Assembly: GCA_023663725.1 (NCBI GenBank)
Contig: JAMPGX010000014.1
Span: 35,890-99,889 of the forward strand
DNA: 64,000 bases
Reading direction: 5' to 3'
Origin: a bacterium
GTDB lineage: Bacteria; Bacillota; Clostridia; Lachnospirales; Lachnospiraceae
The notes under the pieces are model-generated. The model saw only the letters and a program-made list of their open reading frames with translations. It was not told the origin of the DNA and did not search any database. Position 1 is the first letter of the stretch, and each line of letters starts with the position of its first letter. The position numbers were made by a program, and so were the translations under genes. Positions 6,985 to 36,337 of the stretch are shown piece by piece.

Positions 6985-8457
6985 CTATCCCAGCAAAGCC
7001 AAGACTCCCTGATTATTATTATTCGCCTGTGTCAACATAGCTATTCCGGCCTGCTCCAGGATATTGTGGTTGGCATACTCCACCATGAGCTTCGCCATAT
7101 CTGAGTCCCTGACAGCAGATTCTGCCGCCTGCGTATTTTCCACTATATTGTCCAGATTCGCAATAGTATGCTCCAGCCGATTCTGGTATGCACCCATTCT
7201 GCTGCGCTCCTCGCTCACAAACTTTGTCGCCGTCTTGAAGCTGGAGATCGCTTGGCGCGCCTTGGCCTGAGTGCCTACGTCAACCCCTCGTATCTTCAGA
7301 GTGACTGTGGAGATAGACGGGAGCTCTATCGCCATCTCATGTCCCTCCTCCGCTCCGACCTGCAGAACCACCCAGTCAACCTTGGCCAGCTTGTCGGCAT
7401 CGTCCACAGAATAGGCGGTACCGGGGGCAAATTTCCCGTATTCTCCCCTTGCCTTTATATTGTCATAAGTTGCATTTGACCACCCTGGCCATGTCACAGC
7501 AGTGTCAGCCGACGATTTGATGGATAGAGACTCTCTGGATCTGTCATCATATATTATTAACTTCTTATTCGCCAGATCCACCGTCAAATTGGTGTAATGA
7601 TTCCGAGGATTACCCCCGTCAGTCGCAGCCACAATACGGTTCAGCAGCTCGTCGGCGGTAGTTACGTCTTTGAGACCTACATTATAGATATAATGGCTGC
7701 CGCTTTGCTCCTTGCTGTTGCCGGAATCCAGCGTAAATTTAATACTGTAGTGATTGGTGCAGGTACAGCAGGTGGTATGGAACCCGTTGTTCTCCAGCTC
7801 CTTCAATTGCTGCTCGCTCCCTGTAAATTGAGAGAAATCCAAAGTCGCCGCCTCATGATTGATCGTCGCCGTTCCATTTGACGTTGTTGTGCTGCCATCC
7901 GCGTTCGTAGTCGTCATCACATAATTCTTCGTAGTTTGATGTATCTCCGACATCACGCCCGAAGTAGAACCCTGTCCTACCCAGGCCGGCAGTCCCCCTG
8001 CGATAATCACCTGAGAATTGCCCTCCGGCAGAGGAACATCCTTCCCCTTCAGCACCGGAATCTCATTGAATGTAGCCTTGTCCGAAATAGCGTCAATCTC
8101 CTCCTTGAGCTGCGCGATCTCGCGCTGGATATACGACCGATCCTCATCTGTGAGGCTGCCATTGGCCGCCTTGACGCTGAGCTCTGTTCCGCGGTGCAGC
8201 ATCTCATGCACCTCGGCCATCGCTCCGTCCGCAATCTGTACCATTGAGATGCCATCCTGCGCATTGAGCGACGCCTGCGCAAGACCTCTGATCTGTCTCC
8301 TCATCTTCTCTGAGATAGCAAGCCCAGCCGCATCATCCGCCGCCCTGTTTATCCTGTAACCAGATGACAATCGCTCGGATAATTTATCCCGCCGTTTGCT
8401 GGTGCCAGTATACATTCTATTGGCATTCATAGCCAATAAATTATGCTGTATTACCAT
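6985..8457 (-). CDS. fliC1: Flagellin, large form with expanded central domain
   Basis: A 490-residue flagellin. The conserved N-terminal D0/D1 (MVIQHNLLAMNANRM, then LSSGYRINRAADDAAGLAIS) and C-terminal D1/D0 (RLEHTIANLDNIVENTQAAE to GIAMLTQANNNNQGVLALLG) flank about 240 variable surface-exposed residues (150-395). That region is Ser/Thr/Asn-rich, giving many candidate O-glycosylation sites, and carries an unusual C-C-T-C motif at 230-233. ATG 8457 follows AAGGAGGAAAGAA; an upstream in-frame start at 8481 has no such site. A sigma-28 promoter lies 60 bases upstream. The protein is secreted by the flagellar export apparatus without a signal peptide and polymerises into the filament. Confidence 0.95.
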   Translation of the reverse strand: MVIQHNLLAMNANRMYTGTSKRRDKLSERLSSGYRINRAADDAAGLAISEKMRRQIRGLAQASLNAQDGISMVQIADGAMAEVHEMLHRGTELSVKAANGSLTDEDRSYIQREIAQLKEEIDAISDKATFNEIPVLKGKDVPLPEGNSQVIIAGGLPAWVGQGSTSGVMSEIHQTTKNYVMTTTNADGSTTTSNGTATINHEAATLDFSQFTGSEQQLKELENNGFHTTCCTCTNHYSIKFTLDSGNSKEQSGSHYIYNVGLKDVTTADELLNRIVAATDGGNPRNHYTNLTVDLANKKLIIYDDRSRESLSIKSSADTAVTWPGWSNATYDNIKARGEYGKFAPGTAYSVDDADKLAKVDWVVLQVGAEEGHEMAIELPSISTVTLKIRGVDVGTQAKARQAISSFKTATKFVSEERSRMGAYQNRLEHTIANLDNIVENTQAAESAVRDSDMAKLMVEYANHNILEQAGIAMLTQANNNNQGVLALLG

Positions 8458-8483
8458 TTCTTTCCTCCTTGAAAAACGCACTT

Positions 8484-8493
8484 GCTTCCTTGC
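8484..8493 (-). promoter_or_regulatory. Possible CsrA-type GGA site in fliC1 leader
   Basis: The leader contains GCAAGGAAGC about 25 bases before the ribosome binding site AAGGAGGA, the same arrangement as in the fliC2 leader. Paired AAGGA sites of this kind are bound by CsrA in the Bacillus hag leader; assignment here is inference. Confidence 0.4.
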
Positions 8494-8515
8494 ATGGTAA
8501 ATTATACCATTTAAT

Positions 8516-8543
8516 TTATCGGATGAAAGACTGGATAAATTTA
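8516..8543 (-). promoter_or_regulatory. Sigma-28 promoter of fliC1
   Basis: On the minus strand TAAA (8543-8540), 16 bases, then TCCGATAA (8523-8516). This matches the SigD/FliA consensus and predicts a leader of roughly 50 bases. Confidence 0.75.
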
Positions 8544-8574
8544 TAGCTTGGTCATGGATTTGAAATATAGTTCA

Positions 8575-9867
8575 CTATATATCTCGTTCCCGCTCTCGGA
8601 GGAATTCCCCATACAGAGGACAAATATATTGATCTATCTCGTATAACTTTAATGTACTCAGCACATCCTCCCAGTTTATCACCGCCAAAGCCATCACCAG
8701 TACAGCGTTCTCCTTTTGACAGCTGTACTCCTCTACACCGTATACCCTTTTGCCAAACATCATTGCTTTATTTTCTGATGTGTCCGTTACTACAAATCCC
8801 TCAAAAGGAATACCATTATTGAGAAAATAATTCGCCACTACCTGCCCATACCATCCAGCCCCATATATGTATATAGATTTAGACTGAGTCAATTCTACCA
8901 TTGCGTTTTGGAACTCCTCCTCATATCCCAACACCATGATATTGACCATTCGCTCCAACTCATTCAAATATCTGTCATATCCGTTCCCTAACTCCTCCTT
9001 AGCTGCTCTCATTAAGGCTTTGAACTCCTCTGAGCCAATCTTCCTTCTTGCTAAAACATCTACAAAGCCATGATGCCCTCGCGTCTCATATACCCCTAAA
9101 TAGAATTGATATTTTCCATCTGTATATTGATTATATTGATCCATAAATCTTGAGAATTGTGCCCGCCAGATCAATAACTTTTTTAAATCTCTATCCGAAC
9201 GCTTGGACCAGGAGCCATCAGCCCCAAATCTGTATACGCTCATTATTCTATCCATATAATACATTTTCCCTTTTGTAAATGCGAAGAAATCTGTGGGTAC
9301 ATCCCCAACCTCTCTGCACTCCAGAAAAATACCTTCTAATATAAATGCATCCTTCCTATGCATTTTAGCTGCTGTTGCAATAGGAGGAAAACGCCTGTCA
9401 AGCACATCCCTCGCTTCGAGATCTCTGCTCCGATCAAAATTATTCTGTACATCAAGGCGATTATTTTTGCATCTCCACATAATCGCATTATGAACAACAC
9501 ATGAGTATTCCGGGTGTGCCTCTAAAAAATCAGCCTGAATTTGTAGCTTGTGGCGATCTATCCAAAAATCATCTCCCTCGCAAAACGCAACATACTTACC
9601 TCTGATCATCGGGACCAGGAGTTGTTGCGTAATCTTCACTCCCTTACTCCATTGATTTTCCTTTTCATAAACTATTCGAAAAACATCTGGATATTTCGCC
9701 TCATACTCCTTTAATATTACTTGCGTCCCATCAGTCGACGCGTCATCATGAATGATATATTCAACCTCGAAATCTGTTTCCTGCATCAATAAGCCTTCCA
9801 GCATATCCTGTACATAGTCAGCCTGATTATAAGTCAGACATATCACGGTAACTAACGGCTGTGACAT
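8575..9867 (-). CDS. GT2 glycosyltransferase with C-terminal Rossmann-like domain
   Basis: A 430-residue protein. Residues 1-240 are a family 2 GT-A domain (LVTVICLTYNQADYV, DDASTDGT, and the metal/nucleotide site EGDDFW). Residues 315-425 form a second domain with a dinucleotide-type loop, IYIYGAGWYGQVVANYF, followed by GFVVTD. Similar C-terminal or N-terminal domains occur in four other products of this operon. ATG 9867 follows AAGGAGGGAG. It is the last gene of the 19-gene operon and a paralogue of the enzyme at 20630-21628. Its likely role is sugar transfer in flagellin glycan assembly. Confidence 0.85.
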   Translation of the reverse strand: MSQPLVTVICLTYNQADYVQDMLEGLLMQETDFEVEYIIHDDASTDGTQVILKEYEAKYPDVFRIVYEKENQWSKGVKITQQLLVPMIRGKYVAFCEGDDFWIDRHKLQIQADFLEAHPEYSCVVHNAIMWRCKNNRLDVQNNFDRSRDLEARDVLDRRFPPIATAAKMHRKDAFILEGIFLECREVGDVPTDFFAFTKGKMYYMDRIMSVYRFGADGSWSKRSDRDLKKLLIWRAQFSRFMDQYNQYTDGKYQFYLGVYETRGHHGFVDVLARRKIGSEEFKALMRAAKEELGNGYDRYLNELERMVNIMVLGYEEEFQNAMVELTQSKSIYIYGAGWYGQVVANYFLNNGIPFEGFVVTDTSENKAMMFGKRVYGVEEYSCQKENAVLVMALAVINWEDVLSTLKLYEIDQYICPLYGEFLRERERDI

Positions 9868-9901: not shown

Positions 9902-10972
9902 CTATAAGAGCAGTTCCTGCTTTTCCACTATAATCTTTATATATTCCTCTTTCTTATCGCGCATGACCTCCAATCCACTCAATAATTCTTCAAAATCAAA
10001 TCTATGTGTAATGTATTTTTCCGGACATATTTTGCCATTCCGAAGCCTATCCAACACATAGTGCCAGTCATCATCCGCGTCATGTGTAAAGGAAGAATTC
10101 CAGCTTCCCTGAACAGTCAACTGGTTCCTCAGAATTTTCCAATAAATATTCTTTTCTAGTATGATATTAGAAACTGGATTGCCTACAAGCTGTACGACCC
10201 CTCCGGGCGCTACACTGTCAATCCCCTCACTGATCGTTTCATTCTTGCCAACACACTCAAAATATACATCCACTCCCTGCCCATCCGTCCGGTCCATCAG
10301 CCATTCATGCGGAGACATGCTCCTACTGTCACAGAAATCTTTATCTGGCAGGCCAAGCTCAATAGCAGCCTTATGTTGTATATCCTTGTTTCCCACCACA
10401 AAGACATTTGAAATATCTGCTTCCTTTAGAAACATTGTCAGCCATATTCCAATTGCCCCCAATCCACAGACCGCCACCTTAGCTGACGGAATCAGACTCT
10501 TCAACAAAGCATGCCTCATAGCATGCACGGCCACAGCCATAGGCTCCATAATTGCAGCCTGCCCATAGGTCACAATATCTGGCAATTCCAGCAGATTCCA
10601 TTGTGGCACTGCCACATACTCTGCAAATCCTCCATTCCTTCTTGAGCCTAGATAACTGTATTCACGGCATAGCTCATAATGTCCTTCACGACAAGGGATG
10701 CACTTTCTGCAGGGTATCAATGGAAAGATGCACACTCTCTTGCCCATCCAGCTTCTGTCGGCATACCTGCCCACATCCACTACTTTTCCTGAAAACTCAT
10801 GACCTACTATCAAGGGATAGTAATAGGAACCTGTCTGAAAGATTCTCGGTATATCCGAACCGCAGACCCCTGCTGCATGTATCTCAATCAAGACATCATT
10901 ATCCATTAGAGGCGGAATCGCTACATCTTCATATCTCAGATCATTGATATCATGTAAAACATATGCTTTCAT
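9902..10972 (-). CDS. Zinc-dependent medium-chain dehydrogenase, TarJ/polyol-phosphate dehydrogenase-like
   Basis: A 356-residue MDR-family alcohol dehydrogenase. The catalytic zinc site is in GVCGSDIPRIFQ and VGHEFSG; the structural zinc site is CRKCIPCREGHYELC; the NAD(P) loop is VCGLGAIG. The closest functional context is the TarJ/sorbitol dehydrogenase group that reduces ketopentose phosphates to pentitol phosphates, because a TarI/IspD-like cytidylyltransferase and a pentulose-phosphate epimerase lie two and three genes upstream. ATG 10972 (after TGAGGAATAAA) is preferred over 10984. Substrate is inferred from context. Confidence 0.8.
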   Translation of the reverse strand: MKAYVLHDINDLRYEDVAIPPLMDNDVLIEIHAAGVCGSDIPRIFQTGSYYYPLIVGHEFSGKVVDVGRYADRSWMGKRVCIFPLIPCRKCIPCREGHYELCREYSYLGSRRNGGFAEYVAVPQWNLLELPDIVTYGQAAIMEPMAVAVHAMRHALLKSLIPSAKVAVCGLGAIGIWLTMFLKEADISNVFVVGNKDIQHKAAIELGLPDKDFCDSRSMSPHEWLMDRTDGQGVDVYFECVGKNETISEGIDSVAPGGVVQLVGNPVSNIILEKNIYWKILRNQLTVQGSWNSSFTHDADDDWHYVLDRLRNGKICPEKYITHRFDFEELLSGLEVMRDKKEEYIKIIVEKQELLL

Positions 10973-10985
10973 TTTATTCCTCATC

Positions 10986-12020
10986 TCAATATTTCATCTC
11001 CAATTTGACATACGCCAAATATTGTCCCAATGAACAAATCCCCTCCTGCACCAGCTGTCTTTTGTCCAGATAGTGTTTTACTGCCTGCAATGAATCTTTT
11101 AACATCGGCTTGATCCAACTCCCTTGCCCTGATTCCCTGTCTATTTTTAAGAAATAGTTGTTTAAACGCATAACCCAATAAATGTATTGATTATCTCCAC
11201 ACCAGCTCATGAATTTCCACTGGTTCTCCTTGATGGAATATTCATAATCGATGGGATACTCGCTAAAAACACTATATTGTCCAGTTTCCATAGAATATAT
11301 GAAAATTTCATTTCCAAGTCCTGGCATCATCCAGATGTGCTTTTTCGTTACACATAATCTGGTACATATATATTTATCCTGCACTGATACAATAGGGATA
11401 AAATTGTCTGTCATCTTATACACTGTGTTACCGGCCAATGCATATATAGTACCGTTTGCATAAGTTATGTTGGAGATATCGTCGGGTAATGTTATATGCT
11501 TGATTGAATCTATCTGGTAATGATTCAGGTTATACCGAATGCCAACCTTATGCATGCGATTAATCAAAAACATACTATCTCCGCAAAAACATCCTGTGTC
11601 AAAGATATATCCATCGCCACTATATGGTATATCGATGGTATACCTCTGCGTTGTTTTCGAGCGGGAATCAAATACTACTACAGCCGCCACATCACGGAGA
11701 AAAAAGAAAAGTCTTTCTCTATAGCGACACATACTTACAAATCGCTTATCATAACATCCCAGATCATGATAAATGATCGTATTGCCTTCTAGCTTTGATT
11801 CCGCAATCCACGCTCCATTTGCATCCACAGCATATATCGCATCATTGATCACAGTAATATATGTCACCTTACTTTTTAAGGCGTCTCTTTGCATTACATC
11901 AACTTCTCCATTGGATAGATCTACCTGAAGAAAAGCGCCACTATTTTCTGCTATATAGAGCATCTTATTATTATGCATACAACAACAATTGCCTTGTATA
12001 AATTCAATATCACTTTTCAT
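10986..12020 (-). CDS. Predicted beta-propeller protein of unknown function
   Basis: I do not recognise a named family. The 344 residues contain about seven irregular repeats of a short hydrophobic strand followed by a turn and a second strand, for example MLYIAENSGAFLQVDLSNGE, AIYAVDANGAWIAES, TIYALAGNTVYKM and YIYWVMRLNNYFLKIDRESG, consistent with a propeller of WD/kelch/NHL type. There is no signal peptide or membrane segment. ATG 12020 follows GGAG at 9 bases; a GTG at 12056 is also in frame. It sits inside the glycan operon between the cytidylyltransferase and the dehydrogenase, so it is presumably part of the same pathway or senses its product. Confidence 0.7.
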   Translation of the reverse strand: MKSDIEFIQGNCCCMHNNKMLYIAENSGAFLQVDLSNGEVDVMQRDALKSKVTYITVINDAIYAVDANGAWIAESKLEGNTIIYHDLGCYDKRFVSMCRYRERLFFFLRDVAAVVVFDSRSKTTQRYTIDIPYSGDGYIFDTGCFCGDSMFLINRMHKVGIRYNLNHYQIDSIKHITLPDDISNITYANGTIYALAGNTVYKMTDNFIPIVSVQDKYICTRLCVTKKHIWMMPGLGNEIFIYSMETGQYSVFSEYPIDYEYSIKENQWKFMSWCGDNQYIYWVMRLNNYFLKIDRESGQGSWIKPMLKDSLQAVKHYLDKRQLVQEGICSLGQYLAYVKLEMKY

Positions 12021-12060
12021 GTATCCGTTCTCCAATCCCTCATGATAACAGATCACGCAT

Positions 12061-12777
12061 TTACACCGTTTTCTCTAACACCTTCTGCCGAAAACGCTCT
12101 AAGTCAGCCTCCGTTGTGATTTTGAAGTTCCCCTCATCACCATCTATCATAACAATGTCAAGTCCTGCCATAACAGCTGGTTCCGTAGAACCGTTGACCC
12201 TTAATAACTGCTCCGAGGAAAGCGCCCTGTTTGCATGGTAATAGACTCCCAGCCGAAATACCTCCGGCGCTTGTCCCGCAAAGACTTTTTTCCTGTCAAG
12301 CAGGGAATCCACCCGCTTTCCATCGCAGCTGAGATAAACTGTATCCTTCATCGACAACACCGGCATTACCCCATCGTGTTCGCCGATTCTGGCAAAGCAT
12401 GCCTTTATAAATTCCTTCTCTACAAGGGGTCTCGCCGCATCGTGAATCATTATACAGCTATCGTCAGGCGCATATTGTTTCACGTCCTCCAAACCATTCA
12501 AGATCGAAAGCTGTCTGTTTTTCCCCGGTCTCGAAAACCCTTTAAGCTTGTGTAAATATTGATTGTGCCCCATACTTTGTCTGATAAAGGCATGCCATGC
12601 ATCATCCGCCACAATCTGTATCGCGTCTATAACATCATTGTCCAAAAACTTTTCAAGGCTATAGGCTATAACCGGCTTCCCCTGCACCGCCAAATATTGT
12701 TTGGGAATATTGCTGTGAAGCCGCACCCCTGTCCCTCCTGCCAATATAATCGCCGTATTCACACCATTTGCCCCCAT
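12061..12777 (-). CDS. IspD/TarI-family cytidylyltransferase
   Basis: A 238-residue CTP-dependent nucleotidyltransferase. It has TAIILAGGTGVRLHSNIPKQY (the IspD/TarI nucleotide loop), IMIHDAARPLVEKEF and the late MIDGDEGNFKITTEADL (D-x-x-NFKIT is the family's C-terminal signature). With a dehydrogenase and a pentulose-phosphate epimerase around it, it more likely makes a CDP-pentitol (ribitol, arabinitol or xylitol) for a glycan than the isoprenoid intermediate made by IspD. The ATG at 12777 lacks a clear ribosome binding site; GTG 12762, eight bases after GGGGG, may be the true start. Confidence 0.8.
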   Translation of the reverse strand: MGANGVNTAIILAGGTGVRLHSNIPKQYLAVQGKPVIAYSLEKFLDNDVIDAIQIVADDAWHAFIRQSMGHNQYLHKLKGFSRPGKNRQLSILNGLEDVKQYAPDDSCIMIHDAARPLVEKEFIKACFARIGEHDGVMPVLSMKDTVYLSCDGKRVDSLLDRKKVFAGQAPEVFRLGVYYHANRALSSEQLLRVNGSTEPAVMAGLDIVMIDGDEGNFKITTEADLERFRQKVLEKTV

Positions 12778-12782
12778 ATATT

Positions 12783-13469
12783 CTAATTCCGACCAGCCAA
12801 TTGTGCCGCCTCGCCGTATTTCCGAATTTCGGCTATTATTTCACTGTATGGCCTGTTTTTCCCAAAAAGAAGCGTAGTTCCCAGCACAAATCCGGATACT
12901 CCTTTGGGCTGAAACTGTATGATCTTATCCGCGCTGCATGCGCCATCCCAATAAACAGTAAAATCCATTTCCGCCTTCATAGATAGCAACTTGTCGATCT
13001 TTCCGCCAACATAGGGCAGATACATCTGCGCAGCATTGCCTGGATTCACCGACATGACAAGCACCTTCTTGACAATCCGAAGCATCTCGTATACTGTCTC
13101 GATGCTGGTTCCCGGATTGATGGCAATCCCCGGTACCATCCCCGCATCAATAATCTTCTGCAAAGTTGTGGATGGATGGTATTCTGCCTCCGGATGAATA
13201 TAAACTGTATCTCCTGGACGCAACTTCTTTAAAAACATATGAATGTTATTGTTGGGATGCTCAATCATCAGATGTACATCAAGAGGACTCTGGGTAGCGG
13301 TAGCTATATAGGCCATATCATTGATAGACATCGCAAAATTAGGAACATATCTACCATCCATAATGTCAATATGGAAAGAGTCTATACCAGCCTCATCCAA
13401 CTCTCTTACTTCCCTCTCCAAGTTGCCATAATTTGCGCACATCATTGATGCGTTCAATTCAAAGTACAT
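12783..13469 (-). CDS. Ribulose-phosphate 3-epimerase-like protein (divergent)
   Basis: A 228-residue TIM-barrel epimerase: HIDIMDGRYVPNFAMS (catalytic Asp and substrate loop), DVHLMIEHP and the second Asp in WDGACSA. Two conserved loops differ from the housekeeping enzyme: NPGNAAQ replaces the usual NPGFGGQ, and WDGAC replaces VDGGI, so it may act on a different pentulose phosphate or be specialised for this pathway. It would interconvert ribulose-5-phosphate and xylulose-5-phosphate, supplying the ketose to be reduced and activated by the next genes. ATG 13469 follows GAGGAGG. Confidence 0.8.
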   Translation of the reverse strand: MYFELNASMMCANYGNLEREVRELDEAGIDSFHIDIMDGRYVPNFAMSINDMAYIATATQSPLDVHLMIEHPNNNIHMFLKKLRPGDTVYIHPEAEYHPSTTLQKIIDAGMVPGIAINPGTSIETVYEMLRIVKKVLVMSVNPGNAAQMYLPYVGGKIDKLLSMKAEMDFTVYWDGACSADKIIQFQPKGVSGFVLGTTLLFGKNRPYSEIIAEIRKYGEAAQLAGRN

Positions 13470-13497: not shown

Positions 13498-14592
13498 CTA
13501 ACGCAAAAAGTTTTTATTAGCGTACACTATTGTATATTTTTCTCTATGTCTCTCAAAAAAATAGGTAATCAACCTCTCAGATAAAAATCCTGGATATCGG
13601 TTCATATATGTATCTTCCCGCTCCCCGCCGTGTGCTGCCACCGCATCCAAAATAGGATAAAGCCAGCTGCATAGCTCTCGCAGTACTTCTCTGCGGGCGA
13701 TAATCATGTTGCAAGGAGAATACAAATACCCCTCAAAAAACCTTTTGGCATCATCATACTCGTCCGGAAGCTCGTTTCTGAAATATTCCATCATATATTC
13801 CCAGTCGGCACTGTCATGCCTTTCCATATAATTATCCGCTATACTGGGGCCGACATACAACGGCACTGGCAGAATGACATCCACATGGTTAGCAATAATG
13901 CGCGGCACCCAGTCAACGGGCAACAGAAAATGCCTCCTGTAATGTGCCAATCCTACATAATCCTCCCTGGCATTTTTCCATACCCAATACAGGCCCGTAA
14001 GTTCACAGTATTGCCTGTTTTTATGGGATATGTTTTCCCCCTCACAATCGGTGATGACCTCCGGCGATATTCTCTGACTGGTCAACGCCGCTCCAACCTG
14101 CAGCATCGTTTCATCCTCTGTCATATGGTATTCGTCTGTCAACGGCATATCCAGAATTGAGCATGCCACATAAATTCTTGCCGTCTTGTGTGGACAGCAC
14201 ACTTCCGTCTGCAAATCGTTGACAAGCCTAAAGGTTCTTCCCATACTGCGCCAATATTTGTGGATAAATTGATTGCGAAGCCGCATATCCAGCTCCACAG
14301 TCAGAGGTATGATCTTCTTCATGCCTGCATCCCGTAGTTCCTTCACGACCTTGGGGTGATTGGCTCCACGCATACCTATATAAACGGGATAGTCCGTACA
14401 CAGGCCGCTCCCAATCAGACGAACAGGAATGCCATCCACCGTATCCTTGTTTTCTGACATATTGTCAACCAGAAACGCTTCGGTCAGGACATCGGGATAC
14501 AGATACTCCAGATACTTCCGCAATGTTCTCCCTCTGGAATGCGCACCAGCTATATATATTCTCGTTGAAGTCCTCTCCCGCCCCTCTCTCAT
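13498..14592 (-). CDS. DUF4422 glycosyltransferase with N-terminal Rossmann-like domain
   Basis: A 364-residue protein. Residues 1-110 form a Rossmann-like domain (RIYIAGAHSRGRTLRKYL, then AFLVDN) related to those of the GT2 and radical SAM proteins of this operon. Residues 135-364 are a DUF4422 domain, a family of capsule and exopolysaccharide glycosyltransferases, with the typical ELTGLYWVWKN and DYVGLAHYRRHF blocks. The ATG overlaps the stop of the upstream dehydratase gene by 4 bases (ATGA), showing translational coupling to that metabolic block. Confidence 0.8.
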   Translation of the reverse strand: MREGRERTSTRIYIAGAHSRGRTLRKYLEYLYPDVLTEAFLVDNMSENKDTVDGIPVRLIGSGLCTDYPVYIGMRGANHPKVVKELRDAGMKKIIPLTVELDMRLRNQFIHKYWRSMGRTFRLVNDLQTEVCCPHKTARIYVACSILDMPLTDEYHMTEDETMLQVGAALTSQRISPEVITDCEGENISHKNRQYCELTGLYWVWKNAREDYVGLAHYRRHFLLPVDWVPRIIANHVDVILPVPLYVGPSIADNYMERHDSADWEYMMEYFRNELPDEYDDAKRFFEGYLYSPCNMIIARREVLRELCSWLYPILDAVAAHGGEREDTYMNRYPGFLSERLITYFFERHREKYTIVYANKNFLR

Positions 14593-19191: not shown

Positions 19192-19219
19192 ATTCTTTTT
19201 CTCCCAACCAAACGAAAGC

Positions 19220-24360: not shown

Positions 24361-24384
24361 GTCAGCTCCTCCCAACTTTCCTGA

Positions 24385-27690: not shown

Positions 27691-27704
27691 ATATCTTCCT
27701 CCCA

Positions 27705-28918: not shown

Positions 28919-30370
28919 TCAGTCATCCATATTCTGTATCATGATATGCTTTCTGGTCAGTTGAAACGGCTGCAAGATAGCATTCATATCCCCATAATAG
29001 GCATCGCACTGTTTCACTGCCCTATCCACATTGTCCGTCTCATCGCAGATCCCCCATCCCGCCTTCTTATAACCGTCAAGTATCGTCTGATAGCGCATGG
29101 CCAATTGAGGAGATACGCCCTTTAGTCTCTCCGCCATATTTCGCTGCGGTCTCCACCACAAGACGATATCATCTCGCGCCGCCTCAAAAGTACTTAACAC
29201 CCTCTCAAGTTTGTCCAGCGCTTTCTTCTGATGTGCAAGAAACACAGAAATATCATTGACAAACAGTACAATTTTTTTGCGCTGTTCGTCCCCGTTTATC
29301 ACTTTAGATTCCCAGGTGGACGGCAGAGAGATGTCTTCCTCTCCGGTCATTATTGCGTCCAAAGGCACTGACAACTCCGGTAGCTCCGGCCAATTGCCCC
29401 GATCCCTGTAAGCCTTTCCCAACTGGCGCAGCTGCTTGACAAAATAGGGATAATCATGTTGTCCCGGATTTTTCACCTTAACCTTGTAATTCTTATAGAT
29501 ATTGCGAAGCACCTGCTCATACCCGCAGGGAATCGGAAGCATAACGCTCTCAAATGTCGCGCTGTATGCTTCTGCAAACCATTCCTTGGGAAACTTTTTC
29601 TCAGGCCAACGTACATAATCAATAAAGTTTGTCAGATAATCGCTCTCCTCTTCCCCATATAACATGGCTATATAGTTTGCCCATTTAGAGAACTCCGAGG
29701 CAAGCTCATCCCAGCTTTCCTCCTCTACCAGCTGCCAGCGGATGTCTGCGCCACAGTTCTGCGTCAAATATTCAATTCCCTCCCGAATCTCCTTTATATA
29801 GGCGTCCCTCTCTTCTGACAGAGCCTCTGCATTCTCGTACTCCCCATCCTGCAGACGGCAGGCTACCTGCGCGCCTCTCAAGGCTATCGCTACCAAATTT
29901 TCCTGTATTACCTGCGCCTCCTCATTGCGCGGCAGATAATCCAGTGGAAAGATATCCACGCCAACCGAAAACGGACATCCATGATATTGTTTCAGCCACT
30001 CTTCTTCCAGATGGATGTGATCGCTGTTTTGAACAAGCATAAGAAACTGTCCATATCCCTCCGGCGCAAGAGAACTCTTCACACAATATCCTTCCGGCAA
30101 TTCTCTGGGCAGCACCTGCACCAATTTATTATAATCCCCTCTCTTCACCCAGATATCCAGATCGTCATCCCATGGAACAAACCCCTCATGTCGGATAGCG
30201 CCCAACAGCGTGCCATATGCCGCATACCAGGTTATGTCATGTCTGTCACAGACCTCCGCAATCCTCTGTAGCACCTCCAGTCCCGCCGCCCATGCTGCCT
30301 TGATCGATTTATCCACATAGAAGCCTTCTCTGATCTCCTGTTCAAAAAAGCCCTCCTGAAATTCCAGCAT
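28919..30370 (-). CDS. LicD-family phosphotransferase with a C-terminal GT-B-like domain
   Basis: A 483-residue protein. The N-terminal LicD domain has YGTLLGAIRHEGFVPWDDD followed by LDIWV, the nucleotidyltransferase-fold active site that transfers phosphocholine or similar groups from CDP-carriers to glycans. Residues 360-483 form a separate domain (KKIVLFVNDISVFLAHQ, IVLWWRPQR, DAYYGDMNAILQPF, KHIMIQN) that resembles half of a TagF-like polyol-phosphate transferase. ATG 30370 follows GGGAAGGGG; the frame runs on to 30451 but would then translate a terminator hairpin. It is the first gene of the 19-gene operon and is under a sigma-28 promoter. Confidence 0.8.
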   Translation of the reverse strand: MLEFQEGFFEQEIREGFYVDKSIKAAWAAGLEVLQRIAEVCDRHDITWYAAYGTLLGAIRHEGFVPWDDDLDIWVKRGDYNKLVQVLPRELPEGYCVKSSLAPEGYGQFLMLVQNSDHIHLEEEWLKQYHGCPFSVGVDIFPLDYLPRNEEAQVIQENLVAIALRGAQVACRLQDGEYENAEALSEERDAYIKEIREGIEYLTQNCGADIRWQLVEEESWDELASEFSKWANYIAMLYGEEESDYLTNFIDYVRWPEKKFPKEWFAEAYSATFESVMLPIPCGYEQVLRNIYKNYKVKVKNPGQHDYPYFVKQLRQLGKAYRDRGNWPELPELSVPLDAIMTGEEDISLPSTWESKVINGDEQRKKIVLFVNDISVFLAHQKKALDKLERVLSTFEAARDDIVLWWRPQRNMAERLKGVSPQLAMRYQTILDGYKKAGWGICDETDNVDRAVKQCDAYYGDMNAILQPFQLTRKHIMIQNMDD

Positions 30371-30397
30371 CCAAAACCCCTTCCCGGCAAAAGAAAA

Positions 30398-30419
30398 GCC
30401 TTCGTTGCAAAACGAAGGC
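30398..30419 (-). terminator. Intrinsic terminator/attenuator in the leader of the glycan operon
   Basis: In minus-strand orientation GCCTTCG, an 8-base loop and CGAAGGC are followed by TTTTCTTTT. It lies downstream of the sigma-28 promoter at 30487-30514 and 28 bases upstream of the licD ATG, so transcripts from either upstream promoter must pass it to reach the operon. Confidence 0.75.
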
Positions 30420-30486
30420 ATACTGAAAACAAACCCTATAACTGCCTCCATGCAAATTGTCGATTAATCCTATAATCTCAAAATGT

Positions 30487-30514
30487 ATATCGGCTGCTTG
30501 TCACAAAATATTTA
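30487..30514 (-). promoter_or_regulatory. Sigma-28 promoter of the 19-gene glycan operon
   Basis: TAAA (30514-30511), 16 bases, then a perfect GCCGATAT (30494-30487) on the minus strand. Predicted start is near 30480, about 110 bases before the first gene. Confidence 0.8.
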
Positions 30515-30567: not shown

Positions 30568-30873
30568 TCAATCCCAGCGCCCTGTCTCCAAAGCGCTCAA
30601 CATCCTCTTCCCACACGCGGGACAACAGATCTGTTGCAAATCCTCGATCGGACGCGCCCCTCCTCCGCAGTCAGGGCACACACCGACATACCGGTCGCCG
30701 CTATCGCTATCAGGAAAACTCAGCACAGGAACGCTCACGATACCGCTGCAGCCGTCGCACACTGCCAGCTGAAATCCAAAATCAAACACCGGACACTCCG
30801 AGCCTCCGGCCTGTAGCATTATGGCGTTTTCTGTGTCCTTCGGGAACAAAGGCGCTACCCTTTCCAATGTCAT
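30568..30873 (-). CDS. Small zinc-ribbon protein of unknown function
   Basis: A 101-residue acidic protein with three CxxC knuckles: CDGC near residue 39, CPDC near 66 and CPAC near 84. This is enough for one zinc ribbon plus half of another. I do not recognise a named family. ATG 30873 is preceded by GAGG at about 8 bases, and a sigma-28 promoter lies 32 bases further upstream, so it should be expressed with late flagellar genes. The opposite strand has an overlapping open frame (30457-30816) with no such support. Confidence 0.7.
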   Translation of the reverse strand: MTLERVAPLFPKDTENAIMLQAGGSECPVFDFGFQLAVCDGCSGIVSVPVLSFPDSDSGDRYVGVCPDCGGGARPIEDLQQICCPACGKRMLSALETGRWD

Positions 30874-31083: not shown

Positions 31084-32289
31084 GTGGACTCATTTAATCA
31101 TCTGCGACACAGCAGAATATTATTCATGGACTGGAACTGTTACGGAGGGCAATATATGAAGGCAGCTCTGCAGAGCTGCGGAGCAAATCTGTCTCTTTAT
31201 CCATTTTCGCCAAGAACAGGCCGAAATAACGAAACCTTCGAAACTGACCTGGCGACGGCGATCCGTTCATTTTCCCCTCAGTTTGTCTTTTCATTTAATT
31301 ATTTTCCTGTTATTTCCAAGGTATGCAATACGGTGGAGGTCACATATGTTTCCTGGGTATACGATAATCCTCTCGTCTCTCTGTACTCCTATACGCTTGC
31401 AAATCCATGGAACAGAGTATTTCTCTTCGACAAACAGGAATATTTATTCTTCCGCGCCAACGGAATTGACACGGTGCATTACCTTCCGCTGGCCGCCGCT
31501 CCTGAGGCGCTGGGAATTGATGCCTCCTCCGAAGAGCTTTGCCAGACATACCAGGCTGATATTTCGTTTGTGGGCTCTCTGTACACCGAGTCCAAACACC
31601 AGTTGTATCATCGTCTCAAGGACCTTCCCGACCACACACGGGGATATCTCGACGCCATCATGCAGGCCCAGAAGCATATCTATGGCACCTCGCTGATCGA
31701 GGAGCTGCTGAGCGACGAGATTCTTGCCGACCTGCGAAAAGCATGCCCATGTCCCCCCAACCCAGAGGGCGTGGAGACAGAAGGCTATCTCTACAGCAAT
31801 TATTTCCTGCTGCGCCAGATTACCGCAATAGAGCGTCAGGAGTTGATACGGGAAATCTCCCGCAGACATCCCCTGCACATATACACCAATGACGCGTCAT
31901 ACACCTGTTCCGGATGCGTTAACCATGGCCCTGCTGACTACTATAAAGTGGCGCCCTATGTATTTTATCACAGCAAACTCAATCTGAATATCACGCTGCG
32001 CAGTATCAAAAGTGGTATTCCTCTGAGAGCCTTCGACATTATGGGCAGCCAGGGCTTTCTCCTGACCAATTATCAGGAGGATTTTCTGGACTGCTTTGTT
32101 CCTGACGAAGACTTTGTCTACTATACAGATGTCAATGATCTGCTGGACAAGATTGACTATTACTTATCACATGAAAGCGAGCGAAAAGAGATAGCCAGAA
32201 ATGGGTATGAGAAGACCCTGCGTGAACATACCTACGAAAAACGGATTCCTATTCTATTCAGCGATTCCTTAGAGAAAGGCGGAGTGTAA
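31084..32289 (+). CDS. CgeB-like glycosyltransferase
   Basis: A 401-residue GT-B type protein resembling the CgeB/DUF3880 plus Glyco_trans_1_2 architecture. The first half (ILFMDWNCYGGQYMKAAL, VFSFNYFPVISKV, VTYVSWVYDNPL) holds the acceptor-side Rossmann domain. The second half has VFYHSKLNLNITLRSIKSG, IPLRAFDIMGSQGFLLTNYQ and FVYYTDVNDLLDKIDYYL, the donor-side signature. Members of this family occur next to flagellin genes in motile Clostridia and are suspected flagellin glycosyltransferases. The start is GTG 31084 after GAGAGGAAGCAAGGA. It leads a three-gene forward operon with two licD genes. Confidence 0.8.
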   Translation: MDSFNHLRHSRILFMDWNCYGGQYMKAALQSCGANLSLYPFSPRTGRNNETFETDLATAIRSFSPQFVFSFNYFPVISKVCNTVEVTYVSWVYDNPLVSLYSYTLANPWNRVFLFDKQEYLFFRANGIDTVHYLPLAAAPEALGIDASSEELCQTYQADISFVGSLYTESKHQLYHRLKDLPDHTRGYLDAIMQAQKHIYGTSLIEELLSDEILADLRKACPCPPNPEGVETEGYLYSNYFLLRQITAIERQELIREISRRHPLHIYTNDASYTCSGCVNHGPADYYKVAPYVFYHSKLNLNITLRSIKSGIPLRAFDIMGSQGFLLTNYQEDFLDCFVPDEDFVYYTDVNDLLDKIDYYLSHESERKEIARNGYEKTLREHTYEKRIPILFSDSLEKGGV

Positions 32290-32290
32290 T

Positions 32291-33211
32291 ATGGCTTATT
32301 TTCCCAAAGATTATTTTCAGGGTGAAACCCGTGACGGCTTCTATATCGAGCCTATGATGAAATGCGCATGGGCTGCGGAGATTGAGGTTCTGGAGGTTGT
32401 CGCGGAGATCTGCGAAAAACATAATATACGATATTTTGCAGATTTCGGCACATTGCTGGGCGCCGTGCGTCATAAAGGCTTTATCCCCTGGGATGACGAT
32501 ATGGATATCTCCATGCTTAGAGATGACTATGAACGCTTTTTGAGAATAGCACCCGCGGAACTGCCGGAGGGCTGGCATGTACATAGCATCTATGATAATC
32601 CTTATCACAATCAGCTGCATGCGATTGTGAAAAATACAGATAAGCTTGATTACTCTCCCGAACATCTGAGGCGTTTTCACGGTTGTCCTTACTCTGTTGG
32701 CCTGGACCTCTATCCTCTGGATGTGCTGGCCCCTACGTTGGAAGAAGATCAGGCCATATGCGAACTGCTCAAAATATTGCTCCATACCGTGCAGCTGTAT
32801 GAGGAAGATCCAGCACAAACGCTTGAATTGTTGTCTGAAATTGAGTCGTTATGTGATGTGAAGTTTGACCAAAATAATAATCCTAAAAATCAACTGTTGT
32901 TGTTGGCAGATCAGTATTGCCAACTATATAACCACACAGGTAACGATATGATTTCTTACTATGTTTCCCACGCCGATCCCGATTACCTGCTGGATCTGTC
33001 AATCTCCTGGTACAGAGAGCAGATTCTTCTGCCCTTTGAAACTACTTTCATCATGGCTCCTGCCGGATATGATCAGATATTACATGCGAACTATGGAGAT
33101 TATATGACGCCTGTGCGCGGCACACAGGCACATGATTATCCGTTTTGGAAGAAACAGGAACAGATATTGGCTGAGGTTTGGAACAACATGCATGAAGGAG
33201 GAGCATTATGA
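32291..33211 (+). CDS. LicD-family phosphotransferase
   Basis: A 306-residue LicD protein with the catalytic block FGTLLGAVRHKGFIPWDDD then MDISML, and the C-terminal NYGDYMTPVRGTQAHDYPFW segment shared with its neighbour. It starts one base after the CgeB stop (GGAG six bases before ATG) and overlaps the next licD by 4 bases. LicD proteins transfer phosphocholine or related headgroups from CDP-bound donors; the donors encoded nearby are CDP-choline, a probable CMP-phosphonate and a CDP-polyol. Confidence 0.85.
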   Translation: MAYFPKDYFQGETRDGFYIEPMMKCAWAAEIEVLEVVAEICEKHNIRYFADFGTLLGAVRHKGFIPWDDDMDISMLRDDYERFLRIAPAELPEGWHVHSIYDNPYHNQLHAIVKNTDKLDYSPEHLRRFHGCPYSVGLDLYPLDVLAPTLEEDQAICELLKILLHTVQLYEEDPAQTLELLSEIESLCDVKFDQNNNPKNQLLLLADQYCQLYNHTGNDMISYYVSHADPDYLLDLSISWYREQILLPFETTFIMAPAGYDQILHANYGDYMTPVRGTQAHDYPFWKKQEQILAEVWNNMHEGGAL

Positions 33212-34158
33212 TTGAATTTGATGAAAGTTTCTTTTTGGGGGAAACGCGCAACGACTTCTACATTGAACCCATGATGAAGCGCGCTTGGGCTGCTCAGATG
33301 GAGGTCCTGCAGGTTGTACAACAAATCTGCGTAAAATACGGGCTCCGATATTTCGTATCCGACGGAACTCTGTTAGGGGCGGTTCGCCACCATGGATACA
33401 TCCCCTGGGATGACGATCTGGACATTTGCATGCTCCGCGAGGACTATAATCAGTTCTTGTCTCTGGCGCCTGCGGAGCTTGTGGCCCCATACTACATTGT
33501 GAGTCCCTATACCTCGAATGAGTATGATATGACCTTTTCCCGAATCAATAATTCTAGAGCCATTGAATATTCCGTCCAAAGACTTGCGGCTTTTCACGGC
33601 TTCCCTTATATTGCCGGTATTGATATCCTGCCTCTGGATACCATACCAGAAGATGAGAGTGAAAGGGAAACTTTTTTCCTGCTTTATTCCACCATCATGA
33701 CTTGCTGTAAGAAATACAGGGAAGAACCCTCCGAGATTACAGATATGCTTAATGATATAGAAGATCTATGCCATATGAAGATTAACAGGAACGGCAATAT
33801 TCTGAATCAGCTATGCCGCCTTGGAGATACGCTCAGCCAAGCCTACCGTGGGGATTCCAGCCCCTATGTGTCCAGGATGGCCTTCTATAACGAAGAAAAG
33901 TCTCTCCTTCGGAGGGAATGGTATGCAGACTGCGTCTGGCTACCCTTTGAGAACATCAGCGTTCCCGCCCCTTCCGGCTACGACCATATCCTAACGGCCA
34001 TCTACGGAGACTATATGACTCCTGTACGCGGCGTTGCATCGCACGAGTATCCATTCTATAAGAAACAGAGAAAAGTGATGGTAGAGACAATCGCCAGTCG
34101 AATCTATCACGGAGAGGACCCTCTATTAGGAAACAAAGCTATTGAAAAAGGGGACTGA
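33208..34158 (+). CDS. LicD-family phosphotransferase
   Basis: A 316-residue LicD protein, an obvious tandem paralogue of the preceding one: both begin with a GETRxxFYIEPMMK block and end with YGDYMTPVRG. Its active-site segment is DGTLLGAVRHHGYIPWDDD. Divergence in the central third (SPYTSNEYDMTFSRINNSR against NPYHNQLHAIVKNT) suggests different acceptors or headgroups. Its stop codon lies inside a bidirectional terminator shared with the convergent fliC2. Confidence 0.85.
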   Translation: MIEFDESFFLGETRNDFYIEPMMKRAWAAQMEVLQVVQQICVKYGLRYFVSDGTLLGAVRHHGYIPWDDDLDICMLREDYNQFLSLAPAELVAPYYIVSPYTSNEYDMTFSRINNSRAIEYSVQRLAAFHGFPYIAGIDILPLDTIPEDESERETFFLLYSTIMTCCKKYREEPSEITDMLNDIEDLCHMKINRNGNILNQLCRLGDTLSQAYRGDSSPYVSRMAFYNEEKSLLRREWYADCVWLPFENISVPAPSGYDHILTAIYGDYMTPVRGVASHEYPFYKKQRKVMVETIASRIYHGEDPLLGNKAIEKGD

Positions 34159-34173: not shown

Positions 34174-34202
34174 TTTTGGTAGTTATTACATTGTTTCTGT
34201 CA

Positions 34203-35024
34203 TTACTGCAGTAAGGAAAGTACGCCCTGGTTAGCCTGATTAGACTGTGCCAGCATAGCCTGACCTGCCTGAGCCAGAATATTGTTGTTGGAGTACTTAA
34301 CCATCTCAGAAGCCATATCGGTATCACGGATACGGGACTCAGCTGCTGTGGTGTTCTCAACAACGTTATCCAAGTTGCTGATGGTGTGCTCCAGACGATT
34401 CTGAATAGCACCCAGGTTAGCACGCTGCTCACTCAGAGTCTTGATTGCCTTCTTAACAGAAGTGATCGCTGTCTTAGCCTTGCTCTGGGTACCTACAGAA
34501 ACTGTGGCAATACTCAGACCAGCTGTACCCAAGCTTGCAATGGTAACATTGATCGCATTGCTAGCGGTTCCCTCAGCACCTACCTGAAGTCCTACCTTGG
34601 AGAAAGAACCATCCAGCAGCATCTTCTCGTTGAAAGTGGTGGTCTCCTGTACACGGTCGATCTCGGAAAGCAGATTGTCAACTTCCTTCTGGATGTACTG
34701 CAGATCGTCGGAAGACTGGTTCGTGCCGTTAGCAGCCTTAACTGCCAGCTCGTTCATTCTCTGCAGCATATCATGCACTTCATTCAGAGCACCTTCTGCT
34801 GTCTGTACGCAGGATACGCCATCCTGTGCATTCAGGGAAGCCTGGGACAGACCTCTCACCTGACGTCTCATCTTCTCACTGATAGCCAAGCCAGCAGCGT
34901 CGTCAGCTGCACGGTTGATCTTGTAGCCGGAAGATAACTTCTCGGTGGATTTGGACTGGCTAGATGCTGTCAAGCCAAGCATTCTGTTAGAGTTTACTGC
35001 GCGTAAGTTGTGTTGTACTACCAT
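34203..35024 (-). CDS. fliC2: Flagellin, short form
   Basis: A 273-residue flagellin consisting essentially of D0 and D1. The N-terminus MVVQHNLRAVNSNRML and LSSGYKINRAADDAAGLAIS and the C-terminus RLEHTISNLDNVVENTTAAE to GQAMLAQSNQANQGVLSLLQ are canonical; only about 60 residues lie between. It is likely the major filament protein, being driven by two tandem sigma-28 promoters and preceded by AAGGAGGAATATATT. Compared with fliC1 its codon use is more biased, as expected for a highly expressed gene. Confidence 0.97.
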   Translation of the reverse strand: MVVQHNLRAVNSNRMLGLTASSQSKSTEKLSSGYKINRAADDAAGLAISEKMRRQVRGLSQASLNAQDGVSCVQTAEGALNEVHDMLQRMNELAVKAANGTNQSSDDLQYIQKEVDNLLSEIDRVQETTTFNEKMLLDGSFSKVGLQVGAEGTASNAINVTIASLGTAGLSIATVSVGTQSKAKTAITSVKKAIKTLSEQRANLGAIQNRLEHTISNLDNVVENTTAAESRIRDTDMASEMVKYSNNNILAQAGQAMLAQSNQANQGVLSLLQ

Positions 35025-35049
35025 AATATATTCCTCCTTGAATTTTTTA

Positions 35050-35067: not shown

Positions 35068-35211
35068 GATATTTGCTTGCCGTTCCTTCGATTCGCACGT
35101 ATCGTTCTCCCGGCAAATGTTACTGTAATCTCCTCCTGATTGTGCGGATCAGTTCTTGATTACATTGGGGGTAAGCTCTGAACTTTCGTTCATTTGCTTT
35201 ACTTGTTATGT

Positions 35212-35238
35212 ATATCGGTGGCTTTTTGGAAAACTTTA
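35212..35238 (-). promoter_or_regulatory. Sigma-28 promoter 1 of fliC2
   Basis: TAAA (35238-35235), exactly 15 bases, then ACCGATAT (35219-35212). Leader length would be about 180 bases. Confidence 0.85.
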
Positions 35239-35302
35239 GAGGCTATAGAAAAATTTTTCTATTTTTTGCTTCTGCGCTTCCCCTGTCCTTCCGACATATA
35301 CT

Positions 35303-35329
35303 ATATCGGTGGATCTCGAAAATACTTTA
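35303..35329 (-). promoter_or_regulatory. Sigma-28 promoter 2 of fliC2
   Basis: TAAA (35329-35326), exactly 15 bases, then ACCGATAT (35310-35303). The TAA of the -35 element is also the stop codon of the upstream XRE gene. Confidence 0.85.
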
Positions 35330-35824
35330 GGGCTTCTGTGCATTTTCTCCCAAGGTCTGTTTCAATTGCTCAATTTCCTGCGCCTGCTGGTCTATCAACT
35401 GCTTCTGGCGCTCCAGCTCCTGCCTCTGACGTTCGAGAACCTGCTTCTGGCGGCTGATCAGACGATTCTTCTGAGGCACCTCCTCATCACAGGTCTTTAC
35501 CATATTCAGATATCTGGTCAACTGTCTGCGGCCCGCGTTCGAAAGCTCAAGCATGGTATTCAGGGCCGTACCGATCGTGTAGTTACCCACCAGCTCCACG
35601 TTGAGACTGTCTATTGATATCGTGTTGTCCGTCAGCTCCAGCAGATAGTCCGTCGTAACGTGAAAATATTCGGCAAATTTGCATAAGGTCTGCAGATCCG
35701 GATAATGTATGCCGTTTTCGTAATTGGAGATCGTACCGATGGATACGCCAAGGTATTCCGCCAACTGCTTTTGATAGATTCCTCTTTCTGATCTGAGCTG
35801 AAATAATCTTTCGCCAAAGTTCAT
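35327..35824 (-). CDS. XRE-family regulator with coiled-coil tail
   Basis: A 165-residue protein. Residues 1-66 are a Cro/C1-type helix-turn-helix (QLAEYLGVSIGTISNYENG). A middle segment (66-110) has TLNxMLELSNAGRRQLTRYL character, and residues 120-160 form a Q/E/R-rich coiled coil (RQKQVLERQRQELERQKQLI) likely to mediate oligomerisation. It is a tandem paralogue of the gene 21 bases upstream and lies immediately before the fliC2 promoters, so control of flagellin or of the island is plausible but unproven. Confidence 0.8.
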   Translation of the reverse strand: MNFGERLFQLRSERGIYQKQLAEYLGVSIGTISNYENGIHYPDLQTLCKFAEYFHVTTDYLLELTDNTISIDSLNVELVGNYTIGTALNTMLELSNAGRRQLTRYLNMVKTCDEEVPQKNRLISRQKQVLERQRQELERQKQLIDQQAQEIEQLKQTLGENAQKP

Positions 35825-35845
35825 AATGTCCTTATCCCCCGTATC

Positions 35846-36337
35846 TTAGTCCTGATTCTCTTCCGCCCCCTCGCGCTGCTGCTCTAATTGTTCCTTGAGC
35901 CTGCCAATCTCTCTGGCCTGACGCACGATTGTACGCCCCTGCCGCTCGATCATCTGCTTCTGTCTGTTGAGCATCTGATTCTTGCGGGGAAGCTCTTCAT
36001 CACACGTCTGAATCATCGTGAGATATTTGACTATCTTCTTGCGGCTGGAACGCGGCAATGCCGCAATGGTGTTCAGGACGCTCCCTATTGTGTACCCGTC
36101 CGCCAATTCGATGTTCAGGCAATCAACGGACAAGGTATTGTCGGTAAGATCCAGCAGATAATCCGTCGTGACCTGAAAATACTCAGCAAACTTACACAAG
36201 GTATCCAGATCTGGAAGGTGGATGCTATTCTCATAATTAGAAATCGTGCCAATAGACACCTGCAGATATTCCGCCAATTGCCTCTGATAGATACCTCTTC
36301 CTGTTCTCAGCTGATAAAGCCTTTCTCCAAAATTCAT
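35846..36337 (-). CDS. XRE-family regulator with coiled-coil tail
   Basis: A 163-residue paralogue of the following gene with nearly identical helix-turn-helix (QLAEYLQVSIGTISNYENS) and the same layout, but a diverged coiled coil (RQKQMIERQGRTIVRQAREI). ATG 36337 follows AGGAG. The two proteins may form heteromers. A vegetative promoter and two perfect palindromes lie in its leader. Confidence 0.8.
   Translation of the reverse strand: MNFGERLYQLRTGRGIYQRQLAEYLQVSIGTISNYENSIHLPDLDTLCKFAEYFQVTTDYLLDLTDNTLSVDCLNIELADGYTIGSVLNTIAALPRSSRKKIVKYLTMIQTCDEELPRKNQMLNRQKQMIERQGRTIVRQAREIGRLKEQLEQQREGAEENQD

Follow-up and report, generated by a model that had tools for sequence, protein, structure and literature searches.

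What does a 19-gene operon for glycosyl transfer, radical chemistry and acid metabolism build when it lies between two flagellin genes? We addressed this question in a 64,000-nucleotide stretch (the window) of a Lachnospiraceae draft genome of 3.63 Mb (GCA_023663725.1); the window is part of the 99,889-base contig JAMPGX010000014.1 (C5). The island is real and most likely serves flagellin glycosylation; it probably builds an elaborate, partly phosphorus-containing flagellar sugar coat. It includes an apparently undescribed, compact acid-making pathway, the cassette, which is also found in many other bacteria, for the most part close to genes for surface sugars.

Gene content of the island and its sigma-28-type sites

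The preliminary description of this DNA had counted two flagellins and 23 genes for glycan, headgroup, radical and acid chemistry, and Pfam matches together with open reading frame (ORF) positions confirmed this content. Flagellin A (6985..8457, minus strand; Flagellin_N 136.7 bits, Flagellin_C 75.4 bits) is listed as an ORF from a GTG at 8481, but its probable start is the ATG with a ribosome-binding site at 8457. Flagellin B (34203..35024, minus strand) matched the same families with 139.7 and 92.1 bits. Nineteen tightly packed minus-strand genes (8575-30451; intergenic gaps of -11 to 92 bp) run toward flagellin A. Between the operon start and flagellin B, and adjoining the latter, stands a divergent plus-strand trio: a DUF3880/Glyco_trans_1_2 glycosyltransferase (31084..32289; PF13524, PF12996) and the phosphotransferases LicD2 (32291..33211; PF04991) and LicD3 (33208..34158; PF04991). 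The operon, this trio and a 101-amino-acid ORF (30568..30873, minus strand) make up the 23 genes, and the end of the range originally given for the island, 35327-36337, consists of two helix-turn-helix genes.

Sigma-28-type promoters had been claimed before both flagellins and the operon, and this claim held. We searched for the pattern TAAA-N15..17-CCGATAWW, which follows the familiar sigma-28 consensus, with 60 first-order Markov sequences as the null. The 64 kb hold four exact sites, whereas the Markov sequences gave 0.12 on average and 2 at most, a count of consensus matches and not of transcription, and all four stand at a flagellin or operon start on the minus strand. They are a predicted promoter of flagellin A (8515..8543; TAAA-N17-CCGATAAA), a predicted promoter of the 19-gene operon (30486..30514; TAAA-N17-CCGATATA), and two sites (35238 and 35329) in 35211..35329 upstream of flagellin B. 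Sites with at most one mismatch gave nine matches (one place counted twice) where a mean of 3.2 and a maximum of 9 were expected, which is not significant as a group. The 101-amino-acid ORF, CxxC-rich and zinc-ribbon-like in sequence, lies upstream of LicD1, the operon's first gene, between a one-mismatch sigma-28-like site at 30932 and the exact site at 30514.

Among the genes of the island and its left flank, a Pfam scan found no lipid-carrier, flippase or polymerase family; three products, P297, a 355-amino-acid protein and the 101-amino-acid ORF, were without a Pfam match. Because a lipid-carrier route was not found in the island, we infer that the glycan would be assembled in the cytosol. 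The missing families also argue against another explanation, namely that the operon produces a polymer of the cell surface or a capsule unit, its LicD proteins decorating a wall polymer, and merely sits among flagellin genes. The sigma-28-type promoter before the operon argues against it as well, and we consider it unlikely, even though the cassette's surroundings in other genomes, given below, favor it.

Flagellin_N had 11 matches in the genome. Since the two weakest are FlgL-like (one by eye) and one is partial, the island flagellins are two of about nine. No match to the island glycan genes was found in the stretches read near the other flagellins, on contigs C16, C49, C9, C33 and C30 (C30 ends inside a flagellin). 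On C16 and C49 (L158 1542-2156 and 6022-6597; L159 8425-9072), other flagellins of this genome have short ORFs nearby that resemble tyrosine recombinases on reading by eye, and such neighbors might indicate phase-variable or mobile flagellins.

Apart from the cassette, the operon encodes enzymes for sugar and headgroup chemistry, all on the minus strand. LicD1 (28919..30451; PF04991, 131 bits) is followed by a DegT/DnrJ-type sugar aminotransferase (27705..28826; PF01041, 302 bits), a glutamine-hydrolysing asparagine-synthase-type amidotransferase (25768..27708; PF00733, PF13537; TIGR01536 364.7 bits, cut-off 267), the radical S-adenosylmethionine (SAM) enzyme 1 (24385..25767; PF04055) and an ATP-grasp ligase (23068..24375), probably an amide ligase, with CPSase_L_D2 just above cut-off and PylC-like_N and LAL_C2 below it. 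A GT2 glycosyltransferase (20630..21628; PF00535) and radical SAM enzyme 2 (19220..20614; PF04055, PF13186) come further downstream; the latter has a SPASM-type N-terminus and a CxxxCxxC motif at residue 102 and is 38% identical to enzyme 1. Beyond the cassette lie a DUF4422 protein (13498..14592; PF14393), which we take to be glycosyltransferase-type, and a trio that is kept in other genomes: a ribulose-phosphate 3-epimerase (RPE) family protein (12783..13469; PF00834), an IspD/TarI-like cytidylyltransferase (12061..12777; PF01128, 113 bits) and a zinc alcohol dehydrogenase (ADH; 9902..10984; PF08240/PF00107), probably a pentulose/alditol-phosphate reductase. The IspD-like protein scored 130.7 bits with the ribitol-5-phosphate cytidylyltransferase model, below the cut-off of 166, while its IspD superfamily membership is clear. 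The 355-amino-acid protein (10986..12056), beta-propeller-like by eye, had no NCBIfam match either; its one weak homolog (32%) is in L077, where the surrounding genes are similar. The operon's last gene, a GT2 glycosyltransferase (8575..9867; PF00535), lies next to flagellin A, so that glycosyltransferase genes stand near both flagellins, the one near flagellin B being that at 31084-32289.

The cassette and its surroundings in other genomes

In other genomes the cassette has the order MmgE/PrpD, then either an aldo-keto reductase (AKR) and a decarboxylase or a 2-hydroxy-acid dehydrogenase, then P297, a CitE-like lyase, FumB and FumA. The members in the island, all on the minus strand, are the MmgE/PrpD-family enzyme (21625..23064; PF03972/PF19305), the thiamine pyrophosphate (TPP)-dependent 2-oxo-acid decarboxylase Ppd2 of the cassette clade (18067..19230), P297 (17152..18045), and the core formed by the C-C bond lyase CCL (15979..17145) and the fumarase/tartrate-dehydratase-type subunits FumB (beta; 15473..15976; PF05683) and FumA (alpha; 14589..15458; PF05681, 175 bits), both of which are kept in cassette loci. 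The best PDB sequence matches of the MmgE/PrpD enzyme were a B. subtilis IRG1 entry and IDS-epimerase. CCL showed a CitE/citramalyl-CoA lyase-like fold, and a PDB sequence search with it yielded no naming match. P297, which matched no NCBIfam model, is predicted to be a TIM-barrel enzyme (predicted template modelling score 0.84). An attempt to name its family from the fold was rejected: Foldseek and VIA-align matched TIM barrels of many unrelated families with much the same Z (15.7 for CutC, about 14 for class II aldolases and for RuBisCO-like proteins). Among open-licence PMC articles we found no published account of the cassette.

P297 is the most conserved cassette protein, with 250 related stretches, of which the best 80 are 81-89% identical. 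We surveyed these closest 80, taking neighbor classes from the 55 with enough flank and searching 50, mostly longer ones, for flagellin. PF02397, DctM, LysR, AKR, 2HADH, Ldh_2, FliD, FliS, FliW, FlgK, FlgG-type and flagellin assignments were checked with Pfam; flippase, RmlA/RmlB, FlgL and beta-propeller labels were read by eye from sequence. Thirty-nine of the 55 well-flanked loci have the decarboxylase with the AKR, and 15 of the other 16 have a 2-oxo-acid reductase within 7 kb. These two exits replace each other, which implies a shared 2-oxo acid. The reductases give a further hint, as the Ldh_2 protein of L074 scored best as an L-sulfolactate dehydrogenase (272 against a cut-off of 500). 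Since a wide range of 2-oxo acids serve as substrates for the 2HADH and Ldh_2 families, this hint of a sulfonate is suggestive only. In three loci (L024, L025 and L029) the cassette lacks the CitE-like lyase.

Is the product tied to flagellin, as had been proposed? In addition to the sigma-28-type sites and the lack of carrier and flippase families, other genomes suggest that it is. A flagellin match was found in 9 of the 50 cassette genomes searched, and in 3 of these 9, a Roseburia, a Butyrivibrio and another Lachnospiraceae, the cassette contig itself, recognized by its length, carries flagellar genes. The Roseburia, strain NALB_7811_12, has FliD, FliS and two flagellins and, after them, homologs of the DUF3880 glycosyltransferase (53%) and LicD1 (43%), then DegT and an Ldh_2-type cassette, DegT and the cassette lying about 9-20 kb from the second flagellin. 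Lachnospiraceae SC0328_S13_3 has the order FliW-FliD-FliS-RPE (80%)-IspD (55%)-ADH (57%)-flagellin (77%) and, 24 kb past the flagellin, LicD1 (61%) with a closely similar cassette operon, the MmgE gene being about 31 kb from the flagellin. In Butyrivibrio NALB_7823_31 a cassette in which no MmgE was found lies about 7 kb after a flagellin and precedes FlgG-type, FlgK and FliD genes. In four of the other six flagellated genomes (G298, G331, G334 and G337), the one flagellin contig checked in each differs in length from the cassette contig. The RPE-IspD-ADH trio adjoins a flagellin in L136, and 4 of the 17 trio loci considered below have a flagellin or FliD nearby. Among the 47 loci both neighbor-classed and flagellin-searched, those without export or deoxythymidine diphosphate (dTDP)-sugar genes and without LysR or tripartite ATP-independent periplasmic (TRAP) transporter neighbors came from flagellated genomes in 5 of 8 cases, versus 3 of 39 for the rest (a post hoc comparison, p 0.0017). 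That versions of the operon recur beside flagellar genes is a third point against the surface-polymer explanation.

Several observations weigh against a flagellar role. No flagellin match was found in 41 of the 50 cassette genomes, and sugar-transferase, flippase or dTDP-sugar neighbors were present at 41 of the 55 well-flanked loci; both counts are what a surface polymer would lead one to expect. LysR or TRAP-transporter (DctM) genes, which look catabolic, occur at 11 of the 55. The RPE-IspD-ADH trio lay within about 10 kb of a flagellin or FliD in only 4 of 17 fetched loci, these being the 17 best-scoring of 29 matches listed from other genomes (G208 and weaker ones left out), and one more of the 17 is on a contig of 4 kb, too short for a verdict. 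The cassette AKR, present in 39 of 39 well-flanked decarboxylase loci, is absent from our draft host genome (best match 29 bits). Draft genomes, finally, can hide both linkage and genes. Judged by the refuting condition set in the preliminary description, flagellin specificity of the gene set is thus not supported, since the core lies mostly away from flagella. Conservation beside flagellin genes is borne out for operon versions or the cassette in three genomes, while the core mostly occurs elsewhere. Taken together, the many cassette genomes without flagellin and the surface-glycan neighbors suggest that the core is a general surface-glycan module that was adopted here for flagella.

The LysR and TRAP genes raise another possibility, that the cassette breaks down an imported tricarboxylic-type acid and is merely co-regulated with motility. 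In L048 (3608-13509, with LysR too) and L069 (148-9217) the cassette stands directly behind TRAP DctM genes, which suggests a catabolic version of the pathway in those loci. In the island, however, the cassette genes are interleaved with glycosyltransferase, LicD and DegT genes in one operon that has no transporter, and 36 of the 55 loci have glycan-type neighbors and no LysR or TRAP gene. We regard breakdown of an imported acid as highly improbable for the island.

The operon decarboxylase and the phosphonate and choline genes on the left

The decarboxylase Ppd2 scored 422.7 bits with the NCBIfam equivalog model TIGR03297, above its cut-off of 312.5, and had been taken to point to phosphonate. 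The host genome does have a phosphoenolpyruvate (PEP) mutase, about 17 kb from Ppd2. One may therefore suppose that Ppd2 uses phosphonopyruvate from this neighbor and that the operon makes a phosphonylated flagellin glycan; aminoethylphosphonate is reported on C. difficile flagellin (PMC8861647). The PEP mutase, however, lies next to a phosphonopyruvate decarboxylase of its own, Ppd1, which is 44.5% identical to Ppd2 and groups with PEP-mutase-linked decarboxylases. PEP mutase was present in only 8 of 51 cassette genomes (the 50 searched for flagellin and G142), a rate not different from the 27 in a sample of 294 further genomes from the order (E < 1e-30; p 0.20).

We built a tree of 62 decarboxylases. 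Its PEP-mutase-adjacent members are the 14 whose ORFs are complete, a smaller number than that of the loci scanned. The cassette proteins split from these 14 and Ppd1 with moderate node support (0.65), and the cassette side had no intruders. One protein from a cassette locus, L039, grouped with the PEP-mutase side; a PEP mutase is its neighbor there. Seven near-fixed positions differ between the PEP-mutase side (16 sequences) and the cassette side (46 sequences), among them a C-terminal arginine (R354) in 16 of 16 of the former, which Ppd2 lacks, versus P369 in 44 of 46 of the latter. By BLAST, the PEP-mutase-adjacent proteins L113, L153 and L154 resemble Ppd2 more closely than Ppd1, a point in favor of phosphonopyruvate as the substrate, and they too carry the arginine. 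L243, the whole decarboxylase gene beside the PEP mutase of L096, is nearer to Ppd1 (50%) than to Ppd2 (47%). Despite the NCBIfam score, then, co-occurrence, tree and residues argue against Ppd2 as a phosphonopyruvate decarboxylase, and we consider a phosphonate product of the operon very unlikely. A phosphonate content of the glycan had been argued from the wrong gene; a true phosphonate route exists in a separate, adjoining cluster that lies largely outside the window.

This cluster, complete and partly outside the window, comprises a 2-aminoethylphosphonate transaminase (948..2147, minus strand; TIGR03301 472.9 bits, cut-off 360.8), a PEP mutase with an N-terminal cytidylyltransferase-like domain (PF01467; 1..902, minus strand, cut by the window start; whole gene L004 5496-6791; TIGR02320 414.9 bits, cut-off 319.6), which has the EDKxxxxxNS motif at residue 259, and, outside the window, a nucleoside triphosphate (NTP) transferase beside the PEP mutase gene (L004 4683-5480; PF12804/PF00483) and Ppd1 (L004 3565-4686; TIGR03297 457 bits). 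The scores of PEP mutase, Ppd1 and the transaminase all exceed NCBIfam equivalog cut-offs; the NTP transferase, the candidate aminoethylphosphonate cytidylyltransferase (PntC), matched no NCBIfam model at E 1e-30. The space from this cluster to flagellin A is taken, on the minus strand, by a BCCT betaine/carnitine/choline transporter (3673..5244; PF02028, 389 bits), a LicC-like nucleotidyltransferase (5248..6066; PF00483/PF12804) and a LicA-like choline/ethanolamine kinase (5957..6898; PF01633, 59.5 bits), the last 86 bp downstream of flagellin A. A Lic-1-type set of choline kinase, LicC-type transferase and LicD is thus present at the superfamily level. A hairpin-forming inverted repeat at 6945-6979 (minus strand), between flagellin A and the kinase gene, has no T-run, and the two genes may or may not be co-transcribed. 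With the RPE-ADH-IspD, choline and aminoethylphosphonate genes mapped, three activation routes and three LicD proteins fall within about 37 kb.

The left genes add to what speaks against a flagellar role. The promoter of the aminoethylphosphonate operon looks sigma-A-like by eye, the one-mismatch sigma-28-like site at 2244 belonging to the non-significant class. No flagellin adjoined the cluster at the seven other loci examined, six PEP mutase loci (L117-L122) and L161, and G334 has the transaminase, PEP mutase, nucleotidyltransferase and Ppd1 set with no flagellin in the stretch read. Kinase-LicC genes lay beside flagellin in 1 (L184) of 29 LicA loci from other genomes, all of them fetched with only about 1.5 kb of flank. 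In L184 (30-2370; a genome of the same order), the gene for a fused LicC-LicA-like protein of 533 amino acids stands about 200 bp downstream of a flagellin gene.

A proposed flagellin glycan and its relation to known systems

On the flagellar explanation, which we favor, cytosolic glycosyltransferases would build a short O-glycan on flagellin and LicD transferases would add phospho-linked headgroups. Three donors may be available: cytidine diphosphate (CDP)-alditol from RPE-ADH-IspD, CDP-choline from the kinase, LicC-like and BCCT proteins, and cytidine monophosphate (CMP)-aminoethylphosphonate from PEP mutase, Ppd1, the transaminase and the NTP transferase. DegT would make an amino sugar, which the ATP-grasp enzyme would amidate with an acid from the core cassette. 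In the cassette, the MmgE/PrpD enzyme and P297 may prepare an unsaturated dicarboxylic acid, FumAB would hydrate it to a 2-substituted malate, the CitE-like lyase would interconvert this malate and a 2-oxo acid, and Ppd2 would decarboxylate the 2-oxo acid to an aldehyde. Elsewhere this aldehyde would pass to the AKR, or reduction of the 2-oxo acid would give a 2-hydroxy acid instead. What these steps are and which way they run is inferred.

Part of this scheme resembles the methylaspartate route, in which mesaconase, a fumarase-type hydratase, and citramalate lyase, of the CitE fold, act in turn to give a 2-oxo acid. The cassette shares the hydratase and the lyase but has a decarboxylase or reductase, MmgE/PrpD and P297 in addition. 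The Lic-1 phosphocholine pathway shares the kinase, the LicC-like nucleotidyltransferase and the LicD family with the island region; a BCCT transporter stands here at the place of LicB, for which no search was made, and the target would be flagellin. A paper on phosphocholine genes names glycan targets and does not use the term "flagell" in its accessible text (PMC10434233).

The closest parallels are found in C. difficile. The type A flagellin glycan is a phospho-N-methylthreonine-bearing N-acetylglucosamine, part of it carrying 2-aminoethylphosphonate; according to the same paper C. difficile came out negative for pepM, and the source of the phosphonate is left open there (PMC8861647). As in type A, a phospho-linked flagellin decoration is expected of the island; type A, however, has a five-gene cluster and the island a much larger gene set, and our host, unlike C. 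difficile, has a complete pepM-ppd-transaminase-nucleotidyltransferase cluster about 5 kb from a flagellin gene. The type B glycan is a sulfonated peptidylamido-glycan whose amino-sugar nitrogen is acylated by an unusual capping acid, the making of which is attributed to genes downstream of fliC (PMC5207245). DegT and ATP-grasp of the island suggest the same amide-cap logic, but no cassette like the island's is described in the passages of that paper examined, and the island's cap is not known to contain taurine. The left cluster resembles the Pnt pathway to CMP-aminoethylphosphonate (PntC) in its PEP mutase fused to a PF01467 domain, its decarboxylase, its transaminase and its LicC-like transferase; the account of that pathway concerns cell-surface glycans and lipids, and a word search of its main text for "flagell" found none (PMC6697681). 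Among open-licence PMC articles we found no published link of flagellin with CDP-ribitol.

What would these genes mean for the family? Little literature turned up on flagellin glycosylation in Lachnospiraceae or Roseburia, and the island provides a concrete gene list for a flagellin with up to three nucleotide-activated headgroups. Its region is also a genetic candidate for flagellin-linked aminoethylphosphonate, the source of which in C. difficile is described as unknown (PMC8861647). The most interesting element is the cassette, a defined, testable orphan pathway that is widespread and has two exclusive exits; because these point to one shared 2-oxo acid, it is a tractable project for enzymology. 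We are evenly divided on the wider proposal that the cassette is an undescribed, horizontally mobile source of a new class of acyl or alkyl caps for surface glycans, with a modular end product, and that motile Lachnospiraceae cap their flagellin glycan with what it makes. In the boldest form of this proposal, the cassette may arrive, with no need of PEP mutase, at a 2-oxo acid that is sulfonated or phosphonated. Motility is shaped by flagellin glycans, and so may be the way in which a host senses its commensals.

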